Positions 909 to 63,952 of a stretch of 64,000 nt of DNA are shown here, piece after piece; within the stretch, counting starts at the first letter, position 1; every line of letters begins with the position of its first letter. The notes under the pieces are model-generated. The model saw only the letters and a list, made by a program, of their open reading frames with translations. It searched no databases and was not told the origin of the DNA. Source of the DNA: Azorinus chamasolen (taxonomy: Eukaryota > Mollusca > Bivalvia > Cardiida > Solecurtidae); the NCBI GenBank assembly GCA_963576725.1, contig OY755246.1:78880040-78944039 (forward strand). The letters are read 5' to 3'. Position numbers and translations under genes: made by a program.

Positions 909-1155
909 TTAACCCTTTCCCTGTTCTATGTTTATTACAAATTTCAATACCTACTGAATATTCATGGATAAAAGGTTATTATGAAATATGAAAGGTGGAG
1001 CATTGTAGCCATTTTAGAAAGTAAAGACAGACCTTTGAAATTCTATTGGCAAACAGAGTAGACCCTGATCAGACGGCTCCTCTAGGAGCCGTCTGATCTG
1101 GGTCTGCTCTGTTGGCAAATGTGTGAAAACACGTTTATATGAGGGAAAGGGTTAA
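909..1155 (+). mobile_element. PAL1a element
   Basis: TTAACCCTTTCCCTGTTCTATG to GAGGGAAAGGGTTAA, 247 bp, with the central palindrome around CGGCTCCTCTAGGAGCCG. Stem word GACCCTGATCAGACG on the left, CGTCTGATCTGGGTC on the right. Confidence 0.92.
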
Positions 1156-1402
1156 CTATTTTGAAAACCTTTAAAAACAATTCTCCAAAGCATGTGATCC
1201 AGTTTCAATGATATTTGGTGAGAATAGTTGTCTAGTGACCCTTTATCAAGATTGTTAAAATCATGTTGATATCTCACTAAAACATGGCCATCAGGAGAGG
1301 GGCTAAATTTCCTTATATATCTACAATGTATCTATCTGGGCAACTATTTGCACGGAATCTCGAAACTACCTCTCTCCATTCTTCTTCTTCTCTGTTACTC
1401 AT

Positions 1403-1500
1403 TAGCTTCGCCAATGTTTTTACAGATATCAGCTTCGTTTTAACAATTTATCAAAATTGTTAAAACGAAGCTGATATCTGTAAAAACATTGGCGAAGCTA
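1403..1500. repeat. 98-bp near-perfect palindrome
   Basis: Arms of about 47 bp start TAGCTTCGCCAATGTTTTTA and close AAAAACATTGGCGAAGCTA, with a 2-4-bp centre. The near identity of the arms means it is young or maintained by conversion. Confidence 0.93.
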
Positions 1501-1859
1501 ACTTTCCTTATATGGCTGTAGAAAAAACTTCAAAAACTGGCCCAATTTGAATGGTATTTGGTAGGAATAGTCCTGATGACTATATTGAAAATTAATTAAG
1601 ACTACCATACATTTTGAACAAATTGAATAATCTTCAGCTGACAAAATTAAAATTCATCTCTATCTAGTGCTACAATTCGCAGGTGAGCGATTTAGGGCCA
1701 TCATTGCCCTCTTGTTAAAATGTTGCCATGGTAACCAAATGGTGGGCTCAGATTGGTTGAAAATTAGATTTGTTAAATTTTGCTGAAAATTGGTATAATG
1801 GGGGTATTTGGGTACTCTGAACTAAATCGAAGGTGTTTCGAAAAGTTTGTCAAATCACT

Positions 1860-2343
1860 GACTTTAACATTGGCCATAACTTTTGAACCAGTAGAGATAG
1901 ATACATTTGTACTTGATATTTGGCATGTATGTGTATCTCATGAAGCTGCACATTTTGAGGGGTGAGTTGTCATGGTCAAGATCCTTCAGGGTCAAAGGTC
2001 AGATGTGTGTTTGTCAGCAACTTTAACATTGGGCATAACTTTTAAAAACAATAGAGATAGACTTGATATTTGGCATTCATGTATGTCTCTTGAACGCACA
2101 TAATCGGAGGTGACCTGTTAAGGTCAGCCTTCATGGTCAAAGGCCAGGTATATAGGTCAAATCACTTACTTTCAAACCAATAGATAGAGACTTGATATTT
2201 GACATGTATGTGTATCTCATAAAGCCTCACATTTTGAGTGGTGATATCAATGTCAAGGTCATCCTTCAAGGTCAAAGCACAAATGTATAAGTCAAAGTTT
2301 ACATTTGATATTCTGTGCAGGGAGGGGGGGGGGGGGGGGGGCA
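1860..2343. repeat. TGACCTTGACC-type bivalve repeat
   Basis: Units with TTGGCCATAACTTTTGAACC and TCATCCTTCAAGGTCAAAGC, ending in the poly-G run. Confidence 0.9.
2321..2341. repeat. Poly-G run
   Basis: Run of G with a single A near its start, at the end of a TGACCTTGACC-type repeat. Confidence 0.95.
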
Positions 2344-2589
2344 TAGTGTTGCGTTTCCTTTTCCGTAGATTTATTCAGAGGTAGGTCAAAAGCAGCCTAT
2401 GAGGCAATAGTGTAAATAGCCTTTGAGGGAATGGTGTAAAAAGCCTATGAGGGTATGGGTTAGGGGATAAATAAAACAAGAGCAAAACACATTTTACCTT
2501 TTTATTATTTTTTCTTCACATGTAAGTAAAACCATGGTACTGTACAAAAATGATGATATTCTGTAAAGCTACCACTGTATGAATAAACA

Positions 2590-2775
2590 TGAGTGTCTTT
2601 AAAAGCTGGTGGTAGCTTAATGCAGGATGAAATTAATGCAGAAAGCTCCTGTGAGAATTTTGCACATAAATTATTATACATTAAGCTACCACCTGCTTAC
2701 TAGGCTTACTGCAGAATTATTGTGATGCAGAAAGCTCCTGTGTATGACTCATCCTGCATTAAGCACAACCTATCT
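2590..2775. mobile_element. PAL6 fragments
   Basis: Pieces of the PAL6 family (TGGTAGCTTAATGCAGGATG, AGAAAGCTCCTGTG, CATCCTGCATTAAGC) in mixed order. PAL1 core pieces follow at about 2790-2870 and 2995-3060. Confidence 0.7.
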
Positions 2776-3519
2776 TTAAGACAGAATTAAAGCAAACGGA
2801 GCAGAACCTGATCAGATGGTTCCTACAGGAGCTATCTAATTTGGGTCTACTCTGTTTGCCAAGGGGTTAGGGGTTAAAAGTGTGCAAAGATTTTTTACAG
2901 GGGTTACCTGACTTTCTATAACATACACAGGATGTTTTGGTATTGGTGGAGACTGTAGAGTGGGATCTATTATTATAATTATCATAATCAAACTGAGCAG
3001 GCAATGATCAGATGGCACCTACAGGAGCCGTCTGATCTGGGTCTACTGTTTGCTAAAGCGTGAAAAAGGGTTGTATGATGGTAAGGATTAAAACAAGTCT
3101 TTCTAGAAACTTACCAGGCAACATTTTCTATAGTTGATGATGGAAATGATATTTATAGGTGCATGAGTTACAGAATGTGAACAAATTTACATGAAAAAAC
3201 AAAAATTATATAAAAAAACCCTTCAAGTTTTGTCATGATCTCACTAACACAAGTTTAGAATGCTGTTCATAGTACCATATGGTGGCAGTATTCCAATGTA
3301 GTACTCTCTTGTCTCCATACATACTGCCCCAGGTTAGAAACACTGTTCCAAGTTCTTTGGATTATCACTGCCCGGCATTCAAATCCATATGAATTGTCAC
3401 ACTGTCTTTGAACATCCTTGTTCCACTAAAGTGAATCTCTAGAATACTGTGCAAGTTTTTTTTATTTTTCAATCACAGTTCAACCTCTCTACAATGGCAG
3501 TTTTGTCCTTTTACACATT

Positions 3520-3751
3520 ATAACCCATTATTCCCACTTAGGCTATTTTTAGACCTAACCACTTTGATTAAATCTACCAAAAAGGAGCATTAACTAGAGA
3601 AAAGGAAATTTTCAGAATTGTGTAGTTTTGAAACCATTGTGATAAATAGAGCATTTGCTCCTGTGGAGCAAATGCTCTATTTATCACAATGGTTTCACAA
3701 AGTGACTTTTACAGAAGCGCCAAAAGGTGTCAATATGCAGGAATGGATTAA
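3520..3751 (+). mobile_element. PAL2 element
   Basis: TAACCCATTATTCCCACTTAGG to GGAATGGATTAA. Centre GAGCATTTGCTCCTGTGGAGCAAATGCTC in the GAAACCATTGTGATAAATA stem. It runs into a PAL1 half (to about 3955). Confidence 0.9.
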
Positions 3752-3973
3752 TGCCTTTGCAAACTGGGTAGACCCAGACCAGATGGTTTCTGTAGGAGTC
3801 ATCTGATCAGTCTGCTCTGATAGTTTATGACATACAGGTCTGATTCTACACTTTTTAGTCAAAGTAAAACTTTACATGATAAAAAGGAAGCTAATAAATA
3901 TTCATGATGTTTTTATTTCTTACATGAATATTGAACAGGTAACGTGTTAACTCTTTCCTGATAGAAACCCCCT

Positions 3974-4221
3974 TTAACCATTCGCTTGCTATTCACATCA
4001 ATATACCTACCTGTAAATAGTGAAGACCCATAGGAGACAGCTCCTGCAGGAGCTGTCTCATCAGGGTCTGCACTATTTACAAGTTGATTGTGCAACCAGT
4101 GCACTCCACAGCAGTTATTGCACAGCGAAATACGTGTAAACTGAAGATATATGTAATTATACAAGAGGGCATGGGTAAAGAAGGAGAAATGTACTTTAAA
4201 ATTCAGCAAGTGAAGGGTTTA
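3974..4221 (-). mobile_element. PAL3 element
   Basis: TTAACCATTCGCTTGCT to AGTGAAGGGTTTA. Centre GACAGCTCCTGCAGGAGCTG within TGTAAATAGTGAAGACCC. Confidence 0.9.
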
Positions 4222-4449
4222 CAGAGTAGATACAGATCAGACTCAGGAGCGGTCTGATCAGGGTCTACTTTGTTTGCTTATGAACTTTTGTAGATTCTAC
4301 AGTTTCTTCCATAACTTGTTCATATGCCATTTAAAAAATTGAGCAAATTTATACTTATGGTATTATTATTTCTTCTGATCTGGGTCTTCTCTATTTTCAA
4401 AGGTGTGGAAAAGGGTTTATATGAGGGAAAGTGTTAAACTTTTAGCTGA

Positions 4450-4913
4450 TTAACCCCGTTCCTTAATAGACATTTGTGTAGGAATTGTTTGATTCATAAA
4501 TATTCATCAATTTAACTTTTATAAGGTAAGTATTATTTGAAGGAAATTTTGGCTTTGACAACTGTATGATTAAATCTATATAATTCCATAAGCAAGCAGA
4601 GCAGACCCTGATCAAACGGCTTCTACAGGAGCCGTCTGATTTGGGTCTACTCTGTTTGCAAATACATGTACAGTAAAACCTCTCTATAACGGCCATTAAG
4701 TTATGTTAATTAGTTGGTATTTAGGGCAAGTGACTGCTTAAAGCAAAGTTAAAGTAAAACAATACACCTATAGGAGCGTTCTGTTTTACTTTCACCTTGC
4801 TTTAAGCAGTCCCCTGTCTTTAACACAAAATATTTGATGTAATTTAGTGGGCGTTATAGAGAGGTTTTACTGTACATGAAAAATCATTTATATGAGGGAA
4901 TGTGTTGACCCTT
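4450..4913 (+). mobile_element. PAL1 element interrupted by PAL4
   Basis: The PAL1 left part and core (GCAAGCAGAGCAGACCCTGA...TACTCTGTTTGC) are followed by a PAL4 element at 4669-4874, after which the PAL1 right end TTTATATGAGGGAA resumes. Confidence 0.85.
4669..4874. mobile_element. PAL4 element
   Basis: Inverted ends TACAGTAAAACCTCTCTATA...TATAGAGAGGTTTTACTGTA, 206 bp, flanked by CATG or TA-type duplication. Inner stem GACTGCTTAAAGCAA...GCTTTAAGCAGTC with the apex CACCTATAGGAGCG. The ends resemble pogo/Tigger-type TA-inserting transposons. Confidence 0.9.
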
Positions 4914-5294
4914 GGGCTGATCAATATTCATGTAAGAAATAATGACTGAATACTAATTAGCATACTCTAATTAGACAGCTTCTACATGAACTCTCTGACC
5001 TGGGTCTAGCATGTATACAAATTATCAAAATGCATCTCTGTCCAAAATAATGGGTAAAGTCTCACACATTTGGAACAGAATTTCCTCATTTCTTTTCAAA
5101 CATCTGATCAAGGGTTCTAAGGGTTTAGATCTTGACAAGATATACAGTTACTCAGTGTCTCACAGAAGCCTAGATTAGAAGCGTAAATTTTTATTTCAAG
5201 AATAGCTGCTTTGTATCTCTATAAAATCCTATCTTGTGACCAGTCTCTTAAAAACTGTTTCTTTGAGGTGATTTTTAAAGAACGGTCACCCCTC

Positions 5295-5535
5295 TTAACC
5301 CTTCGCTTGCTGAGTTTTAAAATACATTTCTTCTTCTTCACCCTCGTCCTGTTGTATAATTACATATATCTTCACTGTCTACAATTATTTCTCTCTGTAA
5401 TCACTGCTGTTGCGTGCACTGGTTGCACTATCAACTTGTAAATAGTGCAGACCCTGATCCTACAGGAGCTGTCTCATCTGGATCTTCACTATTTACAGGT
5501 AGGTATATTGACGTGAATAGCAAGCGAAGGGTTAA
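5295..5535 (+). mobile_element. PAL3 element
   Basis: TTAACCCTTCGCTTGCTGAG to TAGCAAGCGAAGGGTTAA. One core arm is shortened (GACCCTGATCCTACAGGAGCTG). Confidence 0.9.
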
Positions 5536-5573
5536 GTGATCACCCAAATGAGGTATAATTCTTTGTCTTAGAG

Positions 5574-5634
5574 GTAGGTGGTAGCTTAAATGCAGGATGA
5601 AAGTTTCACACTGCATTAAGCAACCACCTACCTG
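5574..5634. mobile_element. PAL6 element, short
   Basis: AGGTAGGTGGTAGCTTAAAT...ATTAAGCAACCACCTACCTG inverted arms with a shortened centre. A PAL1 core (5675-5740) and a PAL2 half (5870-6054) follow. Confidence 0.75.
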
Positions 5635-6089
5635 CTTCTAACCATTTCCTTCATGTTAAAGCTTTTCCAAGCCTTTGCAAACAGAGCAGACCCAGATTAG
5701 ATGGCTCCTGTAGCAGACATCTGATCAGGGTCTGCTGTCTATGCTTATAACATGATATAAAACTCCACAGTTTTGTTTTTGTTGGTTTTTATTGAAAATT
5801 CTATATTATAAAATTTCAACTAATAGTCAATAAAATTTCAAACAAAGGTCAAAGACACCAACATTTTCTTCGTTTTGAAACCATTGTGATACACAGAGCA
5901 TTTGCCCCACAGGAGCAAATCCTCTATTTATCATAGTGGTTCTAAAACAACACAGTTTTAAAATTGTCCCTTTTTTCTAGCTAATGCTCCTCTTCAGTAG
6001 ATTTGTTCAAAGAGGTAGGATCTGAAAATAGCCTATGAGAGAATGAGGTTAACAACACCGGTGACTACTCATTCAGACGGGTTGAATTT

Positions 6090-6330
6090 ACAGTTTGGTG
6101 GAATAATGAACAATTTTATAATTATATCAGAGCAACAAATAAAGGTGCATACTCAAATACTAAAATCGTTATTTCTCCACCAAACCCTATGTTGTTACCT
6201 CTTGTTAGAATCGTCTTGAAGAGACGATTCTAAAGAGTGGCAACAACATAGGGTTTGGTGGAGAAATAAAGAAGTTATTGTTGAATATGTTTTAATTTAC
6301 ACATCTTATCTGGACCTCTGTATATCCTAT
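6090..6330. mobile_element. PAL5 element
   Basis: ATAAAGGTGCATACTCAAAT...TTATTTCTCCACCAAACCCT and its inverse AGGGTTTGGTGGAGAAATAA around AATCGTCTTGAAGAGACGATT. It ends about 100 bp before the alternative SCUBE last exon. Confidence 0.85.
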
Positions 6331-6429
6331 GTCTTATCTATACATAAATCATCACAAATTTACCCAAGGCAACTGTTGCCCTTTACCCACCATTTACCCT
6401 GCGGTTTCACTCTTTCATCACTGATTTTT

Positions 6430-6573
6430 TCATGACGACAAAAACTGAATCACTTTTCGACGTAAAAGTTTCAAGAATGATTGTGGAAACACGTCCTTGT
6501 AAACGCTCTCATATAGGATGTAGTTCTCTGGTCGGGCTATGACCTTCATCAGTGTGTTTAACAACTTCCTGTC
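6430..6573 (-). CDS. SCUBE: SCUBE last exon, copy A (alternative terminal exon)
   Basis: An acceptor CACTTATCCAG is followed in phase 0 by 47 codons and TGA. It reads DRKLLNTLMKVIARPENYIL, then YESVYKDVFPQSFLKLLRRK and VIQFLSS. It has the same length, phase and start and end landmarks as copy B, with differences spread along the exon and no stop or frameshift, so it is kept as coding. It lies 7.8 kb downstream of copy B and could be used as a mutually exclusive last exon. A minus-strand AATAAA occurs at 5788-5793; whether it ends this transcript is unknown. A second gene with the rest missing is less likely, since no other duplicated SCUBE exon was seen. Confidence 0.8.
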   Translation of the reverse strand, partial: DRKLLNTLMKVIARPENYILYESVYKDVFPQSFLKLLRRKVIQFLSS

Positions 6574-6645
6574 CTGGATAAGTGAAGCACATGTATTATA
6601 AGCAATTTGACACTACATGTACCTCATACCCCGTAGGTATACCCT

Positions 6646-6887
6646 TTAACCCTTTCCCTGATGAATATTCATGTAGGAAATAATGACATCATGAATATTC
6701 ATTAGATTAATTTGCTATTATAGCTCATGGACACAATTTTTGGTCATGGCAGAAACTGTAAAATCATATCTATATTATATCATAAGCAAACAGAGCAGAC
6801 CTATTCAGACAGCTCCTATAGATCTTGTTTGATCTGGGTCTACTCTGTTTTCACAGGTGTACTTATGGAGTAGATCTAATGGGTTAA
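6646..6887 (+). mobile_element. PAL1b element
   Basis: TTAACCCTTTCCCTGATGAATATTCATG to TAATGGGTTAA, with a core of GCAAACAGAGCAGACC...GGGTCTACTCTG. Confidence 0.88.
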
Positions 6888-6893
6888 TGGCCT

Positions 6894-7130
6894 TACCTGT
6901 TCACTACGCATGTAAGAAATAATGACATCATTAATACGTATAAGATTAAATGTTATAATAGTATATAAATACATGCCCTTTTTACTTAGGCAGAAGCTGT
7001 AGAATCAGATCTATATTATATATCATAAGCAAAACCGAGCCTGATCAGACGGCTCCTATAGAAGCCATTTGATCTGGGTCTACTGTTTTGCAAATGTGTA
7101 AACGGGCATTTACATGAAGATAAGGGTTAA
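6894..7130 (+). mobile_element. PAL1b element, diverged
   Basis: ACGCATGTAAGAAATAATGA to GAAGATAAGGGTTAA; a further PAL1 core (7131-7195) is attached. Confidence 0.82.
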
Positions 7131-7387
7131 TATGCAAACAGAATAGTGCCAGATCAGACAGCTCCTATAGGAGCCATCTGATCAGGGTCTACACAGAATT
7201 CTAACACACCCTGCGCACACATCTACATAAACAAAGAAGGGACGTATCTATGTTTTAAATTCTCAATAAAACACCGCACGCGCTGTAACAGCTTAACGTG
7301 ACGTAATATGACTTCGAAAATTCGTACGACAAGAAACGTAGTGCCGTTGTGGCGGTGCACATTATAGTTAAATTGAAGTGTTAGAAT

Positions 7388-7560
7388 TGAAATAATAAAT
7401 TTATACCAGTGTTTTATCGTGCAATCGAACACGGGTAGTCGATGAGATGCTTATAATTAAATCCCTCGGCCTATCGGCCTCGTGATTTAATTAATACGCA
7501 TCTCAACTCCAACCAGTGTTCGATTGCACGATAAAACACTGGTATGAATTTATTATTTCT
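7388..7560. mobile_element. Foldback element, ~170 bp
   Basis: GAAATAATAAATTTATACCA and GTGTTTTATCGTGCAATCGA recur inverted at the other end (TCGATTGCACGATAAAACAC). Inner pairs are GATGAGATGC/GCATCTCA and CTCGGCCTATCGGCCTCG at the apex. Unrelated to PAL1-PAL9. Confidence 0.88.
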
Positions 7561-8088
7561 TAAGTGATTCTACAGTTTCTGTCGAAAATTCTCTTGTTAA
7601 TGATGCCGTTATCAACATTAATCTTATCAATAATTTTACATAATTTCCTAATAAATATTCATCACTTCATGTGTTAATATTAAACTTATTGAGCAAATTT
7701 GTTTCATCAATTTCCTCCTTGAATCCATGAATATTCATAATAACATCATGAATAATAATTAAATTAATTTGTATGATGGGATATAGACACGGGAATGTTT
7801 GGCCATATCAGTAACTGTAGAATAACATCTATATTATTTCATAAGCAAACAAAACATTGATATGATTCTACAGTTAACCCTTTCTTACTTGCTAACACTT
7901 TTTCACACCATTTCAAACCAAATAGACCCAGATCGGAGCCGTCTCTGATCAGGGTCATCTCTGTTTGCTATTGAACTTATATGCATGTAGATCTGATTCT
8001 ACCGTTTCTGCCAAAGCAATCCTGGTTTCATGTATCATAGAAATTCTTATAATAAGTATCTATGGTGTCATTATTTCTTACTTTAATA

Positions 8089-8331
8089 TTAACAGTTTCG
8101 GCGCCAAATTTCGAATTGTCGTCTGCAATCCAATTTTGTTAAATCATTCGGTAAAATATGGAAATAAGATAAATAAATGCAAATTTCAAAGTAATAAAGC
8201 ACAGATATAGAAATGGAGTTTGAGACAAAAAGTGAAGTCCCTGATCACACGCCACCTATCGGAGCCATCTGATCCGAGTCTGCTCTGTTTGCAAATGCGT
8301 AAAAAGGTGTTTATATGAGGGAAAAGATTAA
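8089..8331. mobile_element. PAL9/PAL1 chimeric element
   Basis: TTAACAGTTTCGGCGCCAAA up to AAAAGTGAAGTCCCTGATCA is the PAL9 half (compare 51377-51616 reversed). From GGAGCCATCTGATC to TATATGAGGGAAAAGATTAA it is a PAL1 half. TTAA stands at both outer ends. Confidence 0.88.
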
Positions 8332-8505
8332 GTGTCTACTCTGTTTGCATATGATATATTATAGATAATATTCTGCCATGGCCAAACATTCCTGTATCCA
8401 TGTGCTGTTATAACAATCTGATTAATATTCATGATGTTATTATTTCTTATATAAATATTCATGGAGCCATGGATTAAAGCTAAACTGGTTACATATGTAT
8501 ATTAA

Positions 8506-9102: not shown

Positions 9103-9356
9103 TTAACCCTTTCCCTCATATAAACGTGTTTTCACGCATTTGCAAACAGAGTAGACCCAGATCAGACAGCTCCTATAGGAGCCGTCTGATCAGGGTCTGC
9201 TCTGTTTGCTAAAGAAATGGTAGATCTGTTTCTATACTTCCTATAATTGCTATAATGTTCCACCTTCCATATTTAATTATACCTGTAAATGATTTGTCTA
9301 TGAATATTCAGTAGGTAATGAAATGTGTAATAAACACAGAACAGGGAAAGGGTTAA
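9103..9356 (-). mobile_element. PAL1a element
   Basis: TTAACCCTTTCCCTCATATA to ACAGGGAAAGGGTTAA, 254 bp. Core GACCCAGATCAGACAGCTCC / GGAGCCGTCTGATCAGGGTC. Confidence 0.94.
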
Positions 9357-9380
9357 AGTTATCAGAATGGTGCCAAATTG

Positions 9381-9609
9381 ACTTAATCCATTCCCTCATA
9401 AACTATTTTTAGAAACAACCTCTTTGAATAAATCTACCAAAAAGGAGTATTAACTAGAGAAAATAATTTTTTTAGAATGTTGTAGTTTAAAACCATTGTG
9501 ATACATAGATCATTTGCTCCTATAGGAGCAAATGCTCTATCACAATGGTTTCACAATGTGAATTTTATAGAGGCGCAATAATGTGTCACTAGGGGTTTTA
9601 TGTGTTAAT
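9381..9609 (+). mobile_element. PAL2 element
   Basis: TTAATCCATTCCCTCATAAA to GTGTTAATA. Core TTTGCTCCTATAGGAGCAAA. Confidence 0.9.
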
Positions 9610-9783
9610 AGTTCAATTATAAATATGCAATTAATTAATATTCATGATTTAATTATTATTTGGATGAATATTCAAGGAGAAAAGAGTTATTCAGTTTTAC
9701 AAAGGTCATGATGTAGGGAGATTGTGTGTCTGAAAACCGGTAATTCTAGTATGTTAATCCTTTACTGCAAATATATTAGCCTT

Positions 9784-10033
9784 TTAACCCTTCGCTTGCT
9801 GAATTTTAAAATACATTTCTTCTTCTTTACCTATGCCCTGTTGTATATTTACATATATCTTCACTGTGTACAAGTATTTCACTGTGAAATCACTGCTGTG
9901 GAGTGCACTGGTTGCACAATCAACTTGTAAATAGTGCAGACCCTGATGAGACAGCTCCTGCAGGAGCTGTCTCATCTGGGTCTTCACTATTTACAGGCAG
10001 GTATATTGACGTGAATAGCAAGCGAAGGGTTAA
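9784..10033 (+). mobile_element. PAL3 element
   Basis: TTAACCCTTCGCTTGCTGAA to GCAAGCGAAGGGTTAA, 250 bp. Core GACAGCTCCTGCAGGAGCTGTC. A PAL1 core (10040-10110) follows. Confidence 0.94.
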
Positions 10034-10620
10034 TACACAGCAAACCCAGATCAGACAGCTTCCATAGGAGCTCTTATGGAAGCTGTCTGATCTGGGTCTA
10101 CTTTATTTGCTTATGGAATAATAAATATATGACTCCACAGTTTCTGCAATTACTAAAAATTCTTCTGGTCATTTGGCCCAATTCAGCTAATTAATTTTCA
10201 TGACGTCATTTGTTAAAGCATTAACCGAACACAAATATAAATATGAAAAATAGTATAATTATATACTGTATTTATCAAAAACATTATGTCACATAGTTTA
10301 TAGCATCTGCGTAATTACTTCAAACCAGGATAATCATTGTGAACAAAAATACTTAATCCAAACTTGATGTTGCTATGGTTACTGGATGTTGCTATGGTTA
10401 CTGAAACTAACTTGACCTTCTACATTTTGTGCCAGATTCAAAACTGCCCCTTGCACATAATGCGATCATAAAAGTTCAGCTAATTAATATTCATAATCAT
10501 TTATTATATAAATATTCATGAGGTAAATGGTTAATGTAATTATTACATAAATCGGAAATTGTATTTAACCCTTTACCTCATAAATATTCATGAAAGAAAT
10601 TATGACATCATGAATAGTCA

Positions 10621-14696: not shown

Positions 14697-15312
14697 CATT
14701 AGCTACTCTCCGATGCTACTCATTAGCTTCTCTCTGAGGCTACTCATTAGCTACTCTCTGAGGCTACTCATTAGCTACTCTCTGAGGCTACTCATTAGCT
14801 ACTCTCTGAGGCTATTCATTAGCTACTCTGAGGCTACTCATTAGCTACTCTCTGGGGCTATTCATTAGCTACTCTCTGAGGCTACTCATTAGCTACTCTC
14901 TGAGGCTACTCATTAGCTACTCTCAGAGGCTATTTATTAGCTACTCTCTGAGGCTACTCATTAGCTACTCTCTGAGGCTACTCATTAGCTACTCTCTGAG
15001 GCTATTCATTAGCTACTCTCTGAGGCTACTCATTAGCTACTCTCTGAGGCTACTCATTAGCTACTCTCTGAGGCTACTCATTAGCTACTCTCTGAGGCTA
15101 TTCATTAGCTACTCTCTGAGGCTACTCATTAGCTACTCTCTGAGGCTACTCATTAGCTACTCTCTGAGGCTACTCATTAGCTACTCTCTGAGGCTATTCA
15201 TTAGCTACTCTCTGAGGCTACTCATTAGCTACTCTCTGAGGCTACTCATTAGCTACTCTCCAAGGCTACTCATTAGCTACTCTCTGAGGCTATTCATTAG
15301 CTACTCTCATAG
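14697..15312. repeat. 24-bp minisatellite with 96-bp higher order
   Basis: About 25 copies of GAGGCTACTCATTAGCTACT-CTCT. Variant units with GGCTATTCATTAG recur every fourth unit (about 15002, 15098, 15194, 15290), giving a 96-bp higher-order period. The array lies between inverted flanks (CAGACCCTATCTTGCT left, AGCAAGATAGGGTTTGG right), so it grew inside a palindromic element next to the SCUBE last exon. Confidence 0.95.
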
Positions 15313-15500
15313 GTGATTCTAATGAGTAGAGCAAGATAGGGTTTGGCTGTGAAATATGAAAAAAATATTTTCTTAGATTTTCTATGCCTCTTTCCTCTCA
15401 TCTACAGCTCTGGGCTTAACTCTGAATATGCATACGGCAGATAACTTATGCAAATAGGCTAGCTCCTAGTAATTTGGTATCTCGTCAGAATCCAAACTGT

Positions 15501-18787: not shown

Positions 18788-19242
18788 TATCCCTTTACTC
18801 CATAAATAGCCTTTTTACGCCTTTGCACACAGAGTAGATCCAGATCAGACGGCTCCTATAGGAGCCATCTGGTCAGGATCTGCTGTTTGCTTATAATATA
18901 ATATAGATATGATTCTACACTTTCTGCCATGGCCAAAACGTCCTGTGTCCATGTACTATTATAACAATTAACCAAACTAATATTCATACTGTTGTTGTTT
19001 TCTTACATTAACCCATTCCCTCATATTGACTGTAAAAGTCACTTTGTGAAACCATTGTGATAAACAGAGCATTTGTTCCTATAGGAGCAAATGCTCTATT
19101 TATCACGATGGTTTCGAATTACAAAATTCTAAAATTTTCCTTTTCTCTAGTTAATGCTCCTTTTCGGTAGATTTATACAAAGAGGTTGTATCTAAAAATA
19201 GCCTATGAGGTAATGGGTTAATATTCATGGAGTAAATGTTTC
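18788..19242 (-). mobile_element. PAL1b element with nested PAL2
   Basis: CCCTTTACTCCATAAATAGC to TATTCATGGAGTAAATG. PAL2 occupies 19008-19221. Confidence 0.9.
19008..19221 (-). mobile_element. PAL2 element nested at TTAA
   Basis: TTAACCCATTCCCTCATATT to GAGGTAATGGGTTAA. The flanks join as CTTACATTAATATTCATGGA when one TTAA and the element are removed, matching the PAL1b consensus. Confidence 0.94.
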
Positions 19243-29163: not shown

Positions 29164-29372
29164 TACAGTAAAACCTCTCTACAACAGCCACTAAATTGTC
29201 CTAATTAGTTGGCATATTAGCACAGGTGACTGCTTAAAGCAAGGTGAAAGTAAAACAGAACGCTCCTATAGGAGCGTTCTGTTTTACGTTCGCCTTGCTT
29301 TAAGCAGCCACCTGCCTTTAACTCAAAATACTTTATGTAATTTAGTGGCCATTATAGAGAGGTTTTACTGTA
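29164..29372. mobile_element. PAL4 element
   Basis: TACAGTAAAACCTCTCTACA to TATAGAGAGGTTTTACTGTA, 209 bp. Apex AGAACGCTCCTATAGGAGCG. Confidence 0.94.
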
Positions 29373-32218: not shown

Positions 32219-32330
32219 CTGTAAAAGCAGGTGGTTTCTTAATGCGGGGCAAAAGTAATGCAGAAAGCTCCCAAAGGAGCTTTCTGCATAACTTTTGTCC
32301 TGCATTAAGCTACCACCTGTTTTAAAAATC
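32219..32330. mobile_element. PAL6 element
   Basis: AAGCAGGTGGTTTCTTAATG...CATTAAGCTACCACCTGTTT around AGAAAGCTCCCAAAGGAGCT. Confidence 0.9.
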
Positions 32331-47429: not shown

Positions 47430-49030
47430 CTGTGTCTGAACTGTCACCTTGACCTCTGACCTTGAGGTGTGACCTTGACCTTGATATGATCTCAGTCAAA
47501 ATGTGCAGTTTCTTGAATAGTATGTACACACCAAATACAAGTCTGTATGTCATAGAGTACAATTTGTCATGGATGAATCAGAGAATAAATACTTGGAAAA
47601 TATACTTGTTTCTCGTGTTCTTTTCAGTTTCCCAAATACATTTCTGTAGCTACCTTTAATTAACATTGTGTTTTGGTAAAGGGAAATAACAACTAACTTA
47701 TAACCTAACTTTAATCACGGGAATCACGGGTCATTCGTATTTTCTACATATTCAGTTGACAGCCATTTTTGAATTCTGGCATGGTTTTGATTAAATTCTG
47801 GAGGAATTCTATATTTTACCAGAGGTAACTATTTCTTCATTTCATCCATAACGATTCTTGTTTAACAGTTTATTTTCTTGAATGTTAATTATTTGGTTAA
47901 ACTGTAGAATGACATGTAAAGGTTTGGTAACTATGCTACGCATTCACCGTGCCGTCGTTTTGTACATGTAAGTTTGTTTACAAATCGTCTCCGACGATCA
48001 GATATATTTGACTATCTGTATCTTTTATTTATTTGATGTATGCCTTTTGCTTATAATATTTCTCATTGTTTCAGATAGTACACCAATAAATCGAGAACCA
48101 CATAGACTTGTTACTTATACAGTAAGGAACCCTATGAAATGTATCTCTACTAGTTCAAAGATTATAGCCAATTTTAAAATCATTAAAAAATCATTTTGAA
48201 CTTAACATGTGATCTTGACATAGATAAGACACCACTTAAAAAATGCAGCTTCATGAGATGCATAAACACACAAAATATAAATGCCATCATTTCTACTTAT
48301 TCAAATTGTATAGCCAATATTACATTTGTGGAAAAATGATATTTAACCTTGACTCGTGACCTTGACCAGACCTCACATAAAAGATGTAGTTTTATGAGAT
48401 GCATGAGCCAACCAATAATGTAGCATTTATCATAATCTCTATTAGTTCAAAATGTATAAACAATGTTAAGCAATGTATAAATAAACAATGTTAAGAACAT
48501 GTACAAGTTACAGGAAAATTACATTTGACCTTGACATTTGACATTGACCTTGATTAGGTGTCACTTAAAATATGCAGCTTTATGAGATGCATATGCACAA
48601 CAAGTGTCAAGTGAAAAGTTATATCCAACATAAAAAGTCATTAAACTTAGGGAAAACGATATTTGATTTGACACCTGACTGTAACCTTAACCAAACAGTA
48701 CCATTCTCTTGCTGAATTTTGAAATACATGTCTCCTTCTTTACCCATGGCCTGTTGTATAATTACATATATCTTCACTGTATACAAGTATTTTGCTATGC
48801 AATCACTGCTGTGGAGTACACTGGTTGCACAATCAACTTGTAAATAGTGCAGACCCTGATGAGACAGCTCCTGCAGGAGCTGTCTCATCTGGGTCTTCAC
48901 TATTTACAGGTACGTATATTGACGTGAATAGCAAGCGAAGGGTTAACAGATGCAGTTTCATGAGATCCGTATGCACACCAAAATTCAATTTTGTATATCT
49001 ACCAGTTCAAAATGTACAGCCAATGTTAAG
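47430..49030. repeat. TGACCTTGACC-type repeat, diverged, with nested PAL3
   Basis: Older units of the same family (ATGCAGCTTCATGAGATGCA, GACCTTGACC) are interrupted by a PAL3 element at about 48697-48946, and the repeat resumes afterwards at CAGATGCAGTTTCATGAGAT. Confidence 0.85.
48697..48946 (+). mobile_element. PAL3 element nested in a repeat
   Basis: ACCATTCTCTTGCTGAATTT to GCAAGCGAAGGGTTAA, inserted in the 47.4-49.0 kb repeat. Confidence 0.9.
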
Positions 49031-51376: not shown

Positions 51377-51616
51377 TTAACCATTTCACTGCCAATGTCG
51401 CATAAATGCACCACGACAAAAAGTGCAGTCCCAGATCAGACGCCGCCTTGAAAAGGCGGCGTCTGATCAGGGACTTCACTTTTTGTCTCAATCTCTATTT
51501 CTATGCTTTATTCCTTTGAAATTTGCATTTATTTATCTCATTTACTTATTTTACCAAATGATTTAACAAAATTGGTTTGCAGACGACAATTAGAAATTTG
51601 GCGCCGAAAGGGTTAA
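51377..51616 (+). mobile_element. PAL9 element, reference copy
   Basis: TTAACCATTTCACTGCCAAT to GGCGCCGAAAGGGTTAA, 240 bp. Core GTCCCAGATCAGACGCCGCC / GGCGGCGTCTGATCAGGGAC. Confidence 0.92.
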
Positions 51617-52844: not shown

Positions 52845-52935
52845 ATATAGTAGCTTAATTGCAGGACGTAAGTCATACAGAAAGCTCCCATGGGAGCTTT
52901 CTTTATTACGTTCGTTCTGCATTTAGCTGTCTGCT
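52845..52935. mobile_element. PAL6 element
   Basis: AGTAGCTTAATTGCAGGACG...GTTCTGCATTTAGCTG around GAAAGCTCCCATGGGAGCTTTC. Confidence 0.85.
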
Positions 52936-54612: not shown

Positions 54613-54690
54613 ACCTATGCAAACAGTTTAGATCCAGATGAGACGTCGAGTAACTCGGCGTCTCATCAGGATCCAAACTGTTTGACACTC
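54613..54690. mobile_element. PAL8 hairpin
   Basis: AAACAGTTTAGATCCAGATG...CATCAGGATCCAAACTGTTT around GTCGAGTAACTCGGC, with A-A at the W position. Confidence 0.92.
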
Positions 54691-57000: not shown

Positions 57001-57610
57001 AAAAGCAAACAGAGCAGACCCAGGTCAGCCGTCTGATCTGGGTCTGCTCTGTTTGCTAATGCGTTAAAATGGCGTCTATATCAGTTAATGGTCCTGGGTC
57101 AAGTATGGTCAGTTATTGATATGTCATATGAGGACACGGACTTCAGCCAGTTTGACCGAGGTCATTCCCAGGACGTAAGTAATCACCCAGGGGCATTAGT
57201 AGGCTCGTAACAAGTACTCGTGAAATGTCCCATAGTCATGAAAATTATCATATGGCCACTGTGGTGTCTACCGAAGAACCGTGTGTTTCTCAAAGGAACA
57301 TTTTATGCGCGAATTGGTATCTTCGTGATTATTCATTAACATGTTTTACAATATATTTTTTTCAATAGAATGTTAGCTTTGACAAAAACTATTGGGTCAG
57401 TTCTATATATTATTTTCATAAGCAAACATCACACCCTGATCAGACGGCTCCTGCAGGAGCCATCTGATTTGGGTCTACTCTGTTTGCTTGAAAATTTGAT
57501 AAAAAGCGTGTCTACGAGGGAAAGAGCTATCTCGGCAATTCTCGTTAAATTCCGGTAGATTCGTGTTGGCAGTGATTATAGCATAACCCTTTACTCCAGG
57601 GACATAACCT

Positions 57611-57652
57611 CCCCCCCCCCCCCCCACACACACACACACAAACACACACACA
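57611..57652. repeat. Poly-C and CA microsatellite
   Basis: C-run followed by (CA)n. Similar C-runs stand at about 27428-27440 and 54379-54391. Confidence 0.95.
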
Positions 57653-57744
57653 CCACCCTTGCAAACAAAGTAAAGTATACTTGTACAGGAGACGCTTGAT
57701 CAAGGTTTTCTCTGTTAGCTTCTAGTGTTATATAGAATTCAGAG

Positions 57745-57931
57745 CTCCAGATAAGGTGCGTAAATCAAAATGTTTTCAAGTATAACTTCTTTATTTCTCC
57801 ACCAAACCCTATGTTGTGACTACTCTTTAGAATCGTCTCAAAGAGACGATTCTAAAGAGTGGTCACAACACAGGGTTTGGTGGAGAAATAACAATTTTAG
57901 TATTTGAGTACACACCGTTATCTGTAGCTAT
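57745..57931. mobile_element. PAL5 element
   Basis: TTATTTCTCCACCAAACCCT / AGGGTTTGGTGGAGAAATAA around AATCGTCTCAAAGAGACGATT, nearly perfect. Confidence 0.92.
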
Positions 57932-58032
57932 GATATTATATACAGGTCTGAATATACAGTTTCTTCAATAGCTAAATTCTCCTGTATTCATTTGCCTTTA
58001 TAAAAACATAATCTAATGAACGGTTCATGATG

Positions 58033-58267
58033 TTAACCATTTGCTCCATAAATATGCCTTTTCTATGCTTTTGCAAACAGAGTAGACCCAAGTCAGACGG
58101 TTCCTACAGGTGTGTTCTGTTTGCTTATAATATAATACAGATGTGATTCTACAGTTTCTGCCATGGCTAAAAATCCCTGTGTCCATATGCTATTATAACA
58201 ATTTAATCTAATTAATATCCATGACGTCATCATTTCTTGCATGAATATTCACTGAGGAAAGGGTTAA
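58033..58267 (-). mobile_element. PAL1b element
   Basis: TTAACCATTTGCTCCATAAA to GAGGAAAGGGTTAA. The core is shortened. Confidence 0.9.
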
Positions 58268-58327
58268 TTCTTATATGAAAACCTGAACACATGACCGGGC
58301 TCGTCACTGATACCACCTAGAATTATA

Positions 58328-58830
58328 TTAAAGAGGAGGTCCCTACAATGATCGCATATTTTCATTAATATCATAAAACTTGGTATTTGTTATGCTCTAT
58401 CATTATTATGAAGGTTCCCAATTTGAACTTATATCGAAAAATGCCCATGTGATACAAATAAACCGATTTCATCAATAACTGATAATTTTTGTTCTACAAC
58501 ACAATATTATCGGCCCTTTCCGTAAATTCTTACGCGTTTTGCCGATGATCACCCGATCCCTCAATTGTTTACGTAATAGCTTTCTCGGAAGTGGTCGGAG
58601 AATCGCGAATGGGGCGAACAGTTACGAAATTTAAACTCAACCCGAATAAAACTGAAACATCGGGGAGTTAAACCGGGATCGGCGATATCAAACACATGGA
58701 TGTTTTGTCATTATAAACGGTAATTAGATGGGACTTTTTGTGATATACTACTTTTCAGCATATAAACAAATGAGTTTTGTATATTTCAAGTGTTTATGAA
58801 ACGCGTCAAATGTAGGGACATCCCCTTTAA
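58328..58830. mobile_element. TTAA-ended element with GTCCCTACA ends
   Basis: TTAAAGAGGAGGTCCCTACA at the left and TGTAGGGACATCCCCTTTAA at the right, about 500 bp. No coding frame. Confidence 0.82.
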
Positions 58831-59151
58831 CACTTTATCTCATGCATATTTATACAAGAATTCATGACTCAATGATATGCAATCGCAAAATCGGATAAGT
58901 AAGTTTAGAGTAAGACGTCTTTGATTTATAAAATATAGCATATTTACTGTGAAAACTATTTACCAGTTGAATAATTAAGACTGATTCTCCTTTCTGATTG
59001 CTAATTAAACAAAAAATTCTATCAAAATTTATACCTGAAGAAAATATGACGAACAATGCAGACGCTGATCAAATGACTGCATCTACATGTAGCGACCTCT
59101 GATCAGGGTCTGCTCTGTTTGCAACGTTGTTATATACTCGATTTCCTTGAT

Positions 59152-59398
59152 TTAACCATTTCCTTGACATAAACGCATTTTCACGCATTTGCAAACAAAG
59201 TAGACCCAGAGACTGTAGGCCTGTAGGAGCCGTCTGATCAGGGTCTACTTTGTTTGCTTATGGAAATTTATAGATATGGGTATGCAGTTTCCAAACCAGT
59301 GAAACATTCCCTTTTCTATCTTCCAGTTTATTCATTCGTTCACGAATATTCATGAGGTGAATAAATCATGAATAAATATTGATCAGGGAAAGGGTTAA
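59152..59398 (-). mobile_element. PAL1a element
   Basis: TTAACCATTTCCTTGACATA to GATCAGGGAAAGGGTTAA. Confidence 0.92.
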
Positions 59399-59528
59399 TG
59401 GTTAAGGATGGGCACGATCTGGTTGCCATAGATATTATTTGTAAATATGACAAAGATCCTTGAAAAACGAAGGTGTAAGACTGTAAACACGGTAAATTAG
59501 ATAGCTTTGATAAATCAAGGGCACATTT

Positions 59529-59777
59529 ATCCTTTTCCTTGTTCTATGTTTGTTCCACATTTCAACACCTACTGTATATTCTTGGACAAAATAGTTATAA
59601 TGAAATATGGCAGGTGGAACACTGCAGCCATTTTAGAAAGTTAAGAAACAGAACTATCAAATTATATCAGCAAACAGAGCAGACCCCTATGATCAGACAG
59701 CTCCTATAGGAAGCGCCTGATCTGGGTATTTTTTGTTTGCAAATGCGGGAAAAAGCGTTTACATGAAGGAAAGGGTT
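59529..59777 (+). mobile_element. PAL1a element
   Basis: TTATCCTTTTCCTTGTTCTA to GAAGGAAAGGGTTA. Confidence 0.9.
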
Positions 59778-59964
59778 ATGCGAAAATTTGCCGTCGAGAA
59801 CTTACAGCCATACATGCACTGTGAATGTGGGCAACGAATGTACTGGCATTTGAAAACAGTGAAGATCCAGATCAGATGGCTCAAAGAGGTTAAGGGTTAA
59901 CTCTTTCCTTCATACATGTCTTTTAACGCATTTGCAAAAAGAATAGACCCAGATCAGACGTCTC

Positions 59965-60850
59965 TGTGTGTAAATATAGGTGGTAGAGTGTGAATGAGGG
60001 TGGTAGAGTGTAAATGTGGGGTGGTAGAGTGTTAATGTGGGTGGGATAGTGTAAATATGGGTGGTAGAGTGTAAAAATGTGGATGGGAGAGTGTCAATGT
60101 GGGTGTTATAGTGTAAATGTGGGTGGTAGAGTGTTAATGTGAGAGGTAGAGTGTGAAAGAGTATAAATGGCGGTGGTAGAGTGATGTAGGTGGTAGAGTG
60201 TAACTGCAGGTGGTATAGTGTAAATGTGGGTGGTAGACAGTGAAACATGTGGTAGAGTGTAAATATGGCTGGTAAATCTGGGTAGTAGAGTGTAAATGTG
60301 AATAGAAGAGTGTAAATGCGGATGGTAGAATGTAAATGTGGGTGATAGACTGTAAATATGGCTGGTATAGTGTAAATATGAGTGTTAGAGCGTAAATATG
60401 GGTGTTGCAGATTGTAAATATCGGTGGTAGGGTGTGAATTTGGCTGGTAGAGTGTAAAGGTGGCTAGTAAAGTGTAAAATTTGGGTAGTAGAGTGTATAT
60501 GTGTGGTAGCATGTAAATATGGGTCGTAGAGTGTGAATGTAGGTGGTAGAGTGTAATTGCGGGTGGTATAGTGTACATATGGGTGTTAGAGTGTGAGTGT
60601 GGGGGATAAAGTGTAAATGCTGTTGGGAGAGTGTGGTGTAGAGTGTAAATGTGTGTGAAAGAGGGAAAATGTGGGTGTAAATGCGTGTCGTAGAGTGTAG
60701 AAATGATAGCGTGTGAACGTGTCTTGTAGAGTGTAAATGTGGGTATGGTAGTGTGTAAATATGTGTGATAGAGAGTGAACGTGTCTTTTGTAGAGTGTAA
60801 ATGTGGGTGATAGAGTGTAAATGGTATGTGGATGTTAGAGGGTAATCAAA
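59965..60850. repeat. Degenerate GTGGTAGAGTGTAAATGTGG minisatellite
   Basis: About 0.9 kb of imperfect 18-21-bp units. The longest open frame of the window (222 codons, minus strand) is a translation of this array (L-Y-H-P-H-x-H-S-T-T-type repeats) and is not a gene. Confidence 0.93.
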
Positions 60851-61404
60851 TTAAACGTTGATGGACGAATCGACGAGAGATGGAATTCAACCTAAAGTTC
60901 ACACCGAGTACTTCTTTTCCCGGAGAGCTAAAAATCTACTTTGAAATCTGAAGCAGACGACACCCCTTAGCAGACGAAATTTATCTGACGGCGAAAGGGG
61001 TTAAGTGCTCAGGGGGTCATTATGCTAATGTAGAAAGGCATCCGTATAGATAATGACTGAATAAAGCCATCATGCAAAACTAACATTTACATAACAGGGA
61101 CATATTATAGATACAATCATATCAAACTAGATGCTCTCTGGTGGCGTGGGAAGATTCGCTCTTTAACCGTTTCGACCCTAGAAATCAGAGTGGAGTAGCC
61201 CGTCGGTGTTTTAACTATACAGTCCACTAAGTACGAAAGGTGTTAACTTGATACAGGATTGCGCATGACAAACAGTGCAGGCCCTGACCAGAGGGCTCCT
61301 CAAGGACTCAACTGATCTGGGTCTACATTGTTTGCAAATAACAGTACATGCGTTTCCAAGGTTGAAAGGGTGAACTATTTCAATGCCGAAGTCAAATAAA
61401 CGAT

Positions 61405-61482
61405 TACCTTTGCAAACAGTTTGGATCATGATGAGACGCCGAGTAACTCGGCATCTCATCAGCATCCAAACTGTTTGACACA
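61405..61482. mobile_element. PAL8 hairpin
   Basis: AAACAGTTTGGATCATGATG...CATCAGCATCCAAACTGTTT around GCCGAGTAACTCGGC. Confidence 0.92.
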
Positions 61483-61984
61483 TCAGTTACGTTTTAAAAA
61501 GAAATTGAAGGAATGTCCATCGTTAAACGTACAACAGGCGACAAGAGTGTGTGCAGGTGAAACTGTTTTAGCGCCAAAAGTGGTAAACACTATGTAACTT
61601 TCATCTGCAAAATTTGTCGTCTGCTTCAATAAAAAAAAGTGGTTTACAAAACCATTGTCAGCGTATCAGACAGTTTGAATCCTTGGTGTATCATCTGGAT
61701 CCAAACTGTTTGCACATGTTAGTTAATGCTAGCATCCCTCTGATCAGGGTCTGCTCTTTTTTCTAATAAAAATACTATAGATCTGTTTCCACAATTTGTA
61801 CCATGACCATTATAAAACCTCATATAACTAATATTCATGACGTCATTATTTCCTACATGAATATTAATTTGGGAAAATGTTAACTATACATTCATGTACA
61901 ATGTACATGTGTTTGGTACACTGTTGAGGTTAGTGTCTCTGGCTGAAACATTTTATTTTACTGTTTCAAGAGACCATTTGCTGA

Positions 61985-62177
61985 TTAACACATTCCCTCA
62001 TAGGTTATTTTTAGATCCTACCTCTTTGACTAAATCTACCGAAAAGGAGCATTTTCAGGCAAAAAGGTAATTTTTGGAATTGTGCAGATTTGAAACCATT
62101 GTGATAAATAGAGCATTTGCTCATATGGAGCAAATTCTCTATCTATCACAATGGTTTCAGAAAGTTACAGAAAAGTT
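61985..62177 (+). mobile_element. PAL2 element, right end lost
   Basis: TTAACACATTCCCTCATAGG up to AATGGTTTCAGAAAGTTACAG; it then runs into the GACC repeat. Confidence 0.88.
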
Positions 62178-62184
62178 TCGGAAT

Positions 62185-62265
62185 GAACGAACGACCGACC
62201 GACCGACCGACTGACTGACTGACCGACCGACCGACCGACTGACCGACCGACTGACTGACTGACTG
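62185..62265. repeat. GACC/GACT tetranucleotide repeat
   Basis: GACCGACCGACCGACT-type repeat, followed to about 62460 by a TTCATTCATTTATT-rich stretch. Confidence 0.93.
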
Positions 62266-62984
62266 AAATCATTTATTCACTCATTCACATTCATTTATTA
62301 TTTCTCATTCATTCTCATTCGGTCATTCATTCATTTATTCATGCATTTATCATTTTTGTTTGTTCGTTCATTCATTGGATAATTCGTCTGTCGCTTCATC
62401 CAATCATTCATTTATTGATTCACTCATTCATTTATCCATTCACTCATTTATTCATTCATCTATGTCCTTGATTACGTAATCATAATTTAACATATTTAAA
62501 TAATTACCCACAATGCTGTGCATTATCTTCTAACTTCCTCTCTTCTGCAGTTTATACAAACACTAAGATTGAAACCTCACACTCACTCCAGCCAATGTAA
62601 CTCAGCGCGCGCGCTGAAATGTTTATTTTGCGTGAAACATTATCGTAACGTTAATCATTTTAAGTTCGACATGGCAGTTGCACACAGTTTCGATCCAAAT
62701 GAGACGATGAGTAACTTTCCATTTTCCATGCTGTTTGACATCTTGCCACTTTCCATGCTATTTGACACCTGATCAGTAGTTTCTGGAACTTTTGAACGAC
62801 TCGAAAATAAGTAAAACTTTGCAGTAGATCTGAGTGTTGTGCAGACATTATTTTATTTCAGCAGGACAAAGGTTAACCATTAGCACGTGCAATAATTATC
62901 GTTTGCTTAAACAACTGTCGTCTGCTTCAGTTCTAAAAATAGAACATCTTACTCGTCTTCCCAAATATATTTTCAATGTGTCAA

Positions 62985-63052
62985 ATAGTTTGGATTCTGA
63001 TGAGACGCCGAGTTACTCGGCGTCTCATCTGAATTCAAATTATTTGAAAACG
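62985..63052. mobile_element. PAL8 hairpin
   Basis: AATAGTTTGGATTCTGATGA...CATCTGAATTCAAATTATTT around GCCGAGTTACTCGGC, with T-T at the W position. Confidence 0.9.
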
Positions 63053-63377
63053 TTACAAGGAATACCTAATTACATGCTACGGCTAAAGTTGGTTATCTGC
63101 TAAATTTTTTCACCACTATCTCTTTAATTAATAGAAAGTGGAAAGCACGTGACCGTCTGATAAATCGTGCATCTTCGTGCCAACTTGAATGCATTCTAGA
63201 TTCATGTGGTCTCCATCAACAAAATGGCGTCTGCTTACAGAATTTGCACGTTGAGGCAAGTGTCACCTGTTCAATTTTTTTGAAATATAAATTGTTGAAT
63301 TTTCTTGCCAAACATAACACAATCCCTTCAACACTTTCCCTCGTTTAAATTCATGAGATAAATAATGATAGTATGCC

Positions 63378-63457
63378 TATCGAGGGCTTGGTGCAAAACT
63401 ATTCTAACTCCTTCACTTTGTGAAGGAGTTAGAATAGTTTGCACCAAGCCCTCGATA
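63378..63457. mobile_element. PAL7 hairpin
   Basis: TATCGAGGGCTTGGTGCAAA...GCACCAAGCCCTCGATA around CCTTCACTTTGTGAAGG, with one base missing in the right arm, inside a PAL1 copy. Confidence 0.94.
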
Positions 63458-63779
63458 TGGACTGGCTGAAAATGATATTGGGATCATGAACAAGGAGCAT
63501 TTTGGCGAAAAGGACATTTTTATATAATTCCATAAGCAAACGTTGCAGATCCTGATTAGATGGTTCCTAAGGAACTGTCTGGTCTGTGATTATTTTGTTT
63601 GAAAAGGTCCCAAACGGAATCTCTATGAGAGAAACAGTTAAAAGATTTTCAGCTGAGTATGAATGTAATGTCCGGTTTCTAGGGACACTTTTCAATTCCG
63701 ACTTAGCATTCCATAGGCACATAATTTGAAAATCGTTAGCGATGCGGTCCGCTTCTTAGTCCTTCCCCTTATTGAGAAG

Positions 63780-63952
63780 CCTTTTAACAATTTAGCAAAC
63801 AAAGGAGACCCAAATCAGAGTCAGATCTATATATTATTTCGTAAGCAAACAAAGCAGACCCTGTTCAGACGGCTCCAGCAGGAGCCGTCTGATCTGGGTC
63901 TACTTGTTTGCAAAAGGTGTTCCAATGTGTATCTATAGAACAAAGGGTTATT
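63780..63952 (+). mobile_element. PAL1 element
   Basis: Core GACGGCTCCAGCAGGAGCCGTC flanked by GCAAACAAAGCAGACC and GGGTCTACTTGTTTGC. Ends ATAGAACAAAGGGTTA. Confidence 0.88.

Follow-up and report, generated by a model that had tools for sequence, protein, structure and literature searches.

A stretch of 64,000 nucleotides from the bivalve Azorinus chamasolen (OY755246.1, positions 78,880,040 to 78,944,039, on the contig numbered C12 in our searches; hereafter the window) is rich in short palindromes embedded in miniature inverted-repeat transposable elements (MITEs), and many of these palindromes have the same hairpin tip, GCTCC-N4-GGAGC. This apex is found in three lineages of palindrome arms and in elements of two transposon classes, and elsewhere in the genome there are rare elements made up of halves of two families, fused inside that tip. 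We give an even chance to the proposal that the tip serves as a recombination or template-switch point at which half-elements are shuffled across MITE families of the two classes. The elements and palindromes of the window are as follows, beginning with the five, PAL1 to PAL4 and PAL6, on which the original prediction of a shared apex was based.

9103 to 9356, forward strand: family A (PAL1) TTAA element with its short end leading; centre 9175, apex 9168-9183, TTAACCCTTTCCCTCAT at 72 bases before the centre and its partner at 181 bases after it (9-copy alignment)
9383 to 9608, reverse strand: family E (PAL2) TTAA element; centre 9522, apex 9514-9531, ends placed by eye, five other E copies aligned
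9784 to 10033, reverse strand: family B (PAL3) TTAA element with TTAACCCTTCGCTTGC ends; centre 9960, apex 9953-9968, ends placed by eye, arms homologous to A
29164 to 29372, no strand assigned: family F1 (PAL4) element, flanked by TA and bounded by CAGTAAAACCTCTCTA as terminal inverted repeats; apex 29261-29276 within an inner palindrome at 29223-29314, outer ends placed by eye
32224 to 32323, no strand assigned: family F3 (PAL6) palindrome; apex 32265-32282
52856 to 52925, no strand assigned: diverged family F palindrome; apex GCTCCCATGGGAGC at 52884
1045 to 1120, reverse strand: family A palindrome; apex 1076-1089
48836 to 48911, no strand assigned: family B palindrome; apex 48866-48881
3626 to 3700, no strand assigned: family E palindrome with a 3-nt spacer, GCTCC-TGT-GGAGC, and hence outside the N4 pattern count
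51413 to 51488, no strand assigned: family C palindrome; A-like arms, apex CGCCGCC
54618 to 54685 (also at 61444 and 63013), no strand assigned: family D palindrome; arms A-like by eye, apex CGAGT-N-ACTCG

Palindrome families and the elements that carry them

A palindrome scan of 264 kb, comprising the window and 20 further stretches of 10 kb from contigs C1-C5, returned 196 palindromes with a score of at least 14, while the shuffled window gave none. Grouped by their arms, these fall into families A (47), A2 (7), B (12), C (5), D (13), E (40), F1 (14), F2 (11), F3 (14), G (5), H (12), J (4) and J2 (3), with nine unassigned; per 200 kb sampled there are 10 palindromes of family H and 27 of family E. 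PAL1, PAL2, PAL3, PAL4 and PAL6, which had been taken for members of unrelated families, correspond to A, E, B, F1 and F3, respectively. Several of them are related, as the arms of PAL1 and PAL3 are homologous (11 of 13 positions near the tip and 0.79 over the remainder, with A, A2 and B all mutually homologous), the F1-F3 palindromes, including the arms of PAL4 and PAL6, are related to one another, and PAL1 and PAL2 have similar ends. What stands is that there are three arm lineages (A/B, E and F), with arms of about 32-48 bp in the inner palindrome, in two classes, the arms of E and F having no clear similarity to those of A past the tip. Family C, on the other hand, combines A-like arms (11/13 near the tip, 0.68 beyond) with a different apex in which three of the five tip bases are as in A, and family D has arms that look A-like by eye and another tip. 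Within A-B-C-D the apex varies over conserved arms, whereas across A, E and F it is the reverse. All ten family consensuses that were folded gave very stable hairpins. At 10040-10115 of the window lies a palindrome resembling A with a longer and different centre (GACAGCTTCCATAGGAGCTCTTATGGAAGCTGTC), and in three family J palindromes (L024 at 1198, L027 at 4111 and L035 at 8175) at least one arm is built of a tandem unit of about 30 bp (TTTTGATTGGTCAGATTTGAG...).

TTAA elements about 210-260 bp in length harbour families A, B and E, and their termini read TTAACCCWTTCC... in A and E (PAL1 and PAL2) and TTAACCCTTCGCTTGC, a variant, in B (PAL3). Ends resembling TTAACCCTTTCCCTCAT (at most 4 mismatches) occur 65 and 68 times in the window, and 0-2 times in five shuffles, and TTAA stands at both ends of nine A and five E aligned copies, the exceptions being one E end with TTTA and one A end, TTTAA-shifted, with a base change. 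The short ends of A and E are alike over 40 bp (16 of the 23 bases past the first 17 agree, with none of 2000 shuffles as good), whereas the long ends do not clearly agree (98/2000 shuffles as good). Where both ends of an A or E copy were located, the palindrome centre is placed asymmetrically, at about 72-89 bp from the nearer end and 139-185 bp from the farther one, and hence the apex lies at the exact centre of the palindrome, as originally described, but not at that of the whole element. The A terminus CCCTTTCC and the B terminus CCCTTCGC fit the piggyBac end motif CC[C/T]T as defined in passages of PMC2872659, and CCCATTCC of E fits it loosely. Judged by target site and end motif, A, B and E are putative piggyBac-type MITEs.

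The F palindromes are found in a different setting. By eye, TACAGTAAAACCTCTCTA flanks most F1 palindromes on both sides, and many F2 and F3 palindromes have TACAGTAAAACCTCTCTA or other types on one or both sides; the TA-flanked elements that hold most F1 and many F2 and F3 copies terminate in CAGTAAAACCTCTCTA or in at least three other terminal types, the PAL4-type ends being TACAGTAAAACC... on TA. Target site and end motif would make F a group of pogo-like MITEs, and we presume the class name, pogo/Tigger-like, from the TA flanks and the CAGT... terminal inverted repeats. The proposed contrast between TTAA and TA targets is thus borne out for PAL4 and most F1 copies, while the PAL6 copy at 32273 has, by eye, no clean outer ends. 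Likewise, the proposed difference in termini and arms is confirmed for PAL4 and most other F1 copies, whereas for PAL1-PAL3 it is not. The F arms (GCTTAATGC) themselves contain TTAA and A elements have apparently inserted there (L054, L056), such that one MITE class is the target of the other.

One apex in three arm lineages

The window contains 27 exact copies of GCTCC-N4-GGAGC, where base composition predicts 0.008, and none of the reversed motif, which confirms the shared apex, and all five of the apex types originally named exist. Of their positions that of PAL4 (29261-29276) was exact and the other four were displaced by 1-10 bases; PAL1, at 9168-9183, reads AGCTCCTATAGGAGCC (with AGCTCC rather than GGCTCC on the left), and the apex that had been ascribed to it, GGCTCCTATAGGAGCC, is found instead at 18851, 24108, 32545 and 45128. 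Across the genome (1,723,440,353 bases in 137 contigs) the motif occurs 448,035 times and the same pattern read backwards, as a control, 223 times. The 58 apex sites in the 20 sampled stretches scale to about 500,000, in agreement with this count, which taken alone is evidence of high copy number only. GCTCC is the consensus tip in A, A2, B, E, F1, F2 and F3, and is not the consensus in C, D, G, H, J and J2. As a perfect dyad the common tip is GCTCCTATAGGAGC, and this one apex of 14 bp is present in all three arm lineages and both transposon classes.

The agreement between A and F extends beyond these 14 bp. In the pattern CAGAnnGCTCC, seen between PAL1 and PAL4 or PAL6, 9-10 of 13 positions agree, and up to 22-26 bp are common. 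For each pair, none of the 459 other offsets attains as many matches; between unrelated groups 18 of 12,863 offsets reach nine matches and a single one reaches ten. With apices redrawn from the arms, the probability that three of seven arm lineages (the seven being our own choice) have the same apex is about 2e-4 for a 5-mer and 5e-5 for a 7-mer, and the triples expected under independent bases number 4e-5 and 2e-7, respectively. For A/B against F, then, the match at the tip exceeds chance and descent of the whole elements is not seen, while for E the case is weaker. The sharing of the apex is real and very abundant, and is due partly to descent and partly to something beyond the descent of whole elements.

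Conservation of the tip was compared with that of the arms, as the original prediction had suggested, taking the last five arm positions as tip and those outside the last ten as arm. The tip/arm values are 0.921/0.901 in A, 0.800/0.886 in A2, 0.975/0.913 in B, 0.962/0.954 in E, 0.893/0.951 in F1, 0.855/0.924 in F2 and 0.900/0.884 in F3, and within families the tip is therefore not clearly better conserved than the arms, with the exception of B. Upkeep of one arm by the other, which would leave matching changes on both, has no sign in E, F1, F2 and C: among E copies there are 97 one-arm changes and two matching double changes, against an expectation of 2.2 for doubles of any kind, and among F1 copies 40 and one, against 1.2. 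Matching double changes exceed the expected doubles in A (24 vs 5.9), A2 (8 vs 1.7), B (2 vs 0.2), D (13 vs 2.3), F3 (11 vs 3.1), G (2 vs 0.1) and H (5 vs 2.7), an excess that sub-families may explain.

Hybrid elements with their junction in the tip

If the shared tip is a point of exchange, elements that are half of one family and half of another are predicted. The whole genome was searched for the inner arm of one family followed by the tip and the inner arm of another, which gave 105 places (47 + 58) for A with E, 68 (29 + 39) for A with F and 52 (25 + 27), counted by pattern alone, for E with F; each reversed control gave 0. Thirteen of the 22 pattern loci that were inspected are half A and half E, or half A and half F, joined inside the shared tip, and L052 is a further case. 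Among ten A-E loci six are genuine (L042, L044, L045, L049, L050 and L051), and five of these have TTAA-type ends on both sides, the left end of L050 being ATAA. Since their ends are combined in various ways (long with long in L044; short with short in L045, L049 and L050; short with long in L051), several independent events are likely. Among twelve A-F loci seven are genuine (L053, L054, L057, L058, L059, L060 and L062), including L060, whose weak A score of 0.44 reflects a deletion in its A arm, and L056 is a complex nested case. Four of the A-F hybrids have both outer ends (L053, L054, L057 and L062), one of TTAA type and one of TA type, so their joining cannot depend on a transposase that works on two matching ends.

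Three loci are informative, by eye, as to how such joins arose. In L052 an 18-nt piece of A arm plus apex has been inserted at the apex of an F3 palindrome, a double switch with its exit through the shared tip; in L054 an A element occupies the TTAA within an F3 arm, and its tip and that of the same F3 palindrome are fused, with loss of the middle; and L049 has flanks of F3-type repeat sequence that are not continuous with one another, as would follow from the fusion of two insertions. L052 appears to favour template switching, while L054 and L049 point to local events and seem compatible with a plain deletion from one apex to the next. Palindromes of the GCTCC families have a median neighbour distance of 1,011 bp (n = 79, 17 of them below 500 bp), so that partners are close by. 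Such tip-joined hybrids provide direct evidence that modular exchange takes place, and with L052 they uphold the earlier suggestion of modular elements built around a common hairpin, with template switching or recombination as the route.

A number of observations weigh against the tip as an exchange point, or restrict what the hybrids can tell us. Not all of the 105 A-E places can be accepted as hybrids, since four of the ten inspected (L043, L046, L047 and L048) are one-armed A elements, and three of the twelve A-F loci (L055, L061 and L063) were rejected as diverged A palindromes. At position 26 of L051 (about 1-90) an F1 half leaves via GGAGC and enters the short end of E (CTCTGTAAAAGTC) outside the E apex, at a GC-type overlap like that of the one-armed elements described below, and hence some joins use fewer than two tips. 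Hybrids are also rare, with 105, 68 and 52 exact-pattern places against 448,035 apices, and in the 264-kb sample the elements with both ends identified are of the ordinary short-plus-long kind in 31/31 A, 10/10 B and 35/38 E, the other three E elements having weak scores. Two different arm labels were given to nine of the 196 palindromes, through related families or low scores, although the scan, in demanding that both arms match, would overlook true hybrids. For five A-E hybrids an empty site was sought in 39 sequences (318 kb) and no spanning match was obtained. All three hybrid patterns demand the apex and so cannot show that joins elsewhere are rarer. Moreover, the case of E is a narrow one: anchored at the tip, A and E agree at 5 of 13 positions, a value equalled at 98 of 419 other offsets, with nothing in common past GCTCC, and E has just GCTCCTA in common with the other families. 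As C and D keep A-like arms with other apices, the tip is dispensable, and the hybrids reveal what a shared tip permits rather than how the sharing arose.

In the four one-armed A elements the arm was lost (around position 1500) at one junction, GGAGC^AAATGC, with a 2-bp GC overlap and with at least two different long halves. The L045 hybrid seems to be surrounded by another type of TTAA element with ATTCATG-rich inverted ends.

Origin of the shared tip

We consider exchange to be the likely origin of the sharing. A palindrome would extrude or stall the replication fork, a broken or nascent strand ending in the tip would pair, through annealing or a template switch, with the tip of a palindrome nearby, and the strand could then continue into either half of the partner, leaving joins of the deletion or the template-switch type. 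The same exchange may have moved the tip between families, while A and B would have it in common by plain descent and A and E would derive from related TTAA elements. The A-like centre of 22-26 bp in F is the remnant to be expected of a captured A tip, though common ancestry of A and F would fit it as well.

Common descent alone is possible, if clearly less probable: one ancestral hairpin would have been inherited by A, B, E and F, with the arms diverged or replaced and the hybrids produced by secondary deletion between repeats that already had 14 bp in common. The homologous arms of A, A2 and B, the similar short ends of A and E and the A-F match at CAGAnnGCTCC agree with this, and by eye the flanks of L054 and L049 are compatible with deletion between neighbouring insertions; yet A and F elements differ in ends and target sites, the E and F arms lack clear similarity to A past the tip, and A-B-C-D (D by eye) keep the arms and change the apex, the opposite of what A, E and F do. 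A case can also be made that the tip is a palindromic site of 14 bp bound by a host protein or a transposase, or a hairpin that such a protein recognises, and that several families gained it independently. The perfect dyad in two element classes suits this, as do the better kept tip of B and the binding of subterminal palindromes by piggyBac transposases through their C-terminal domains, stated in passages of PMC11707139. We nevertheless think such selection improbable, given that the tip is not clearly better kept than the arms in A, A2, E, F1, F2 and F3, that a 3-nt spacer is frequent in E, that C, D, G, H and J exist with other apices and that the changes in E copies reveal no upkeep after insertion. 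The earlier proposal of a common factor, for which the hairpin would be maintained, and to which the lack of an excess of matching changes in E and F1 also applies, accordingly finds little in its favour.

Recognition at the RNA level, in which transcribed hairpins are excised or cut, by inverted-repeat splicing or a Dicer-type activity, and these palindromes are favoured as a result, would draw on the very stable folds of the consensuses and on the RNA splicing system for inverted-repeat transposons cited in part of PMC13155455. It is nonetheless very unlikely, because any stable hairpin would be favoured and not specifically one with a GCTCC tip, and an Rfam scan of the window returned no match at the gathering threshold. 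Least credible of all is chance combined with the selective listing of families that agree; palindromes of G, H, J, C and D in the same DNA do have other apices, but both the triple-coincidence and the A-F offset tests disfavour it. A variant of tip exchange, which we regard as speculative and unlikely, is that the tip is a transmissible module copied between palindromes across superfamilies by tip-to-tip template switching, and that, when it comes to lie beside new sequence, fold-back of its self-complementary end with copying of that sequence gives rise to a new palindromic family that retains the old tip. If true, this would explain the same tip, the unrelated arms, the half-element hybrids and the A tip inserted in L052.

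The original prediction knew of no described family of this kind, which is too strong a statement, as coral CMITEs have a common interior and different ends. In the portions of PMC2872659 that describe them, these piggyBac-related elements of Acropora are about 100 bp long with a TTAA target and a 75-bp conserved interior, which is more conserved between families than the ends are. The TTAA target, several CCCTTTCC-type ends and the differing terminal repeats around a common interior are all found here as well; by that description, the present elements are set apart by a common tip of 14-26 bp, its reach into TA-flanked pogo-like elements and the half-element hybrids. An interior more alike than the ends fits F1-F3, and the apex across A, E and F, but not A against C and D. 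Chimeric transposons formed by template switching at short homologies (FoSTeST-like) appear in sections of PMC8277862, where a transposon captures other host sequence, unlike the joining of two transposon families at one fixed hairpin tip. Galileo of Drosophila also has chimeras from recombination between foldback-like copies, although those in the account given in PMC2775673 involve one subfamily, a 141-bp stretch and ectopic recombination rather than different families and a 14-bp tip. The Pearl-family MITEs of bivalves are modular too, and their member DTC84 has a conserved palindrome near the repeat junction, but in the excerpted text of PMC5139131 the Pearl modules are satellite-like tandem repeats and no apex common between families is reported. 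A hard-clam repeat survey lists, in extracts of PMC8905726, almost no piggyBac and about 25% unclassified repeats, and such elements may be hidden in that class. In literature searches that covered few subscription papers, no title or abstract opening described a hairpin apex common to MITEs of two classes. In our own cross-species searches the A/B arm pattern gave 1 + 12 matches, from a viral scan and a genome scan, and the complementary apex followed none of them, and the E palindrome had no match in viral contigs.

Two other features of the window are a perfect 48-bp palindrome with a 4-nt centre at 1402-1501, which belongs to none of these families, and an open frame at 14810-15316 with short tandem amino-acid repeats (RLLISYSL-type), probably a minisatellite.

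The origin of new MITE families and of palindromic interiors is an open question, and this genome, with its hybrids between classes and some 450,000 copies of a single tip, allows counting to distinguish among exchange at the tip, copying by fold-back and plain descent. If tip exchange is true, the tip would be a measurable hotspot for small deletions and for the reshuffling of transposon halves.

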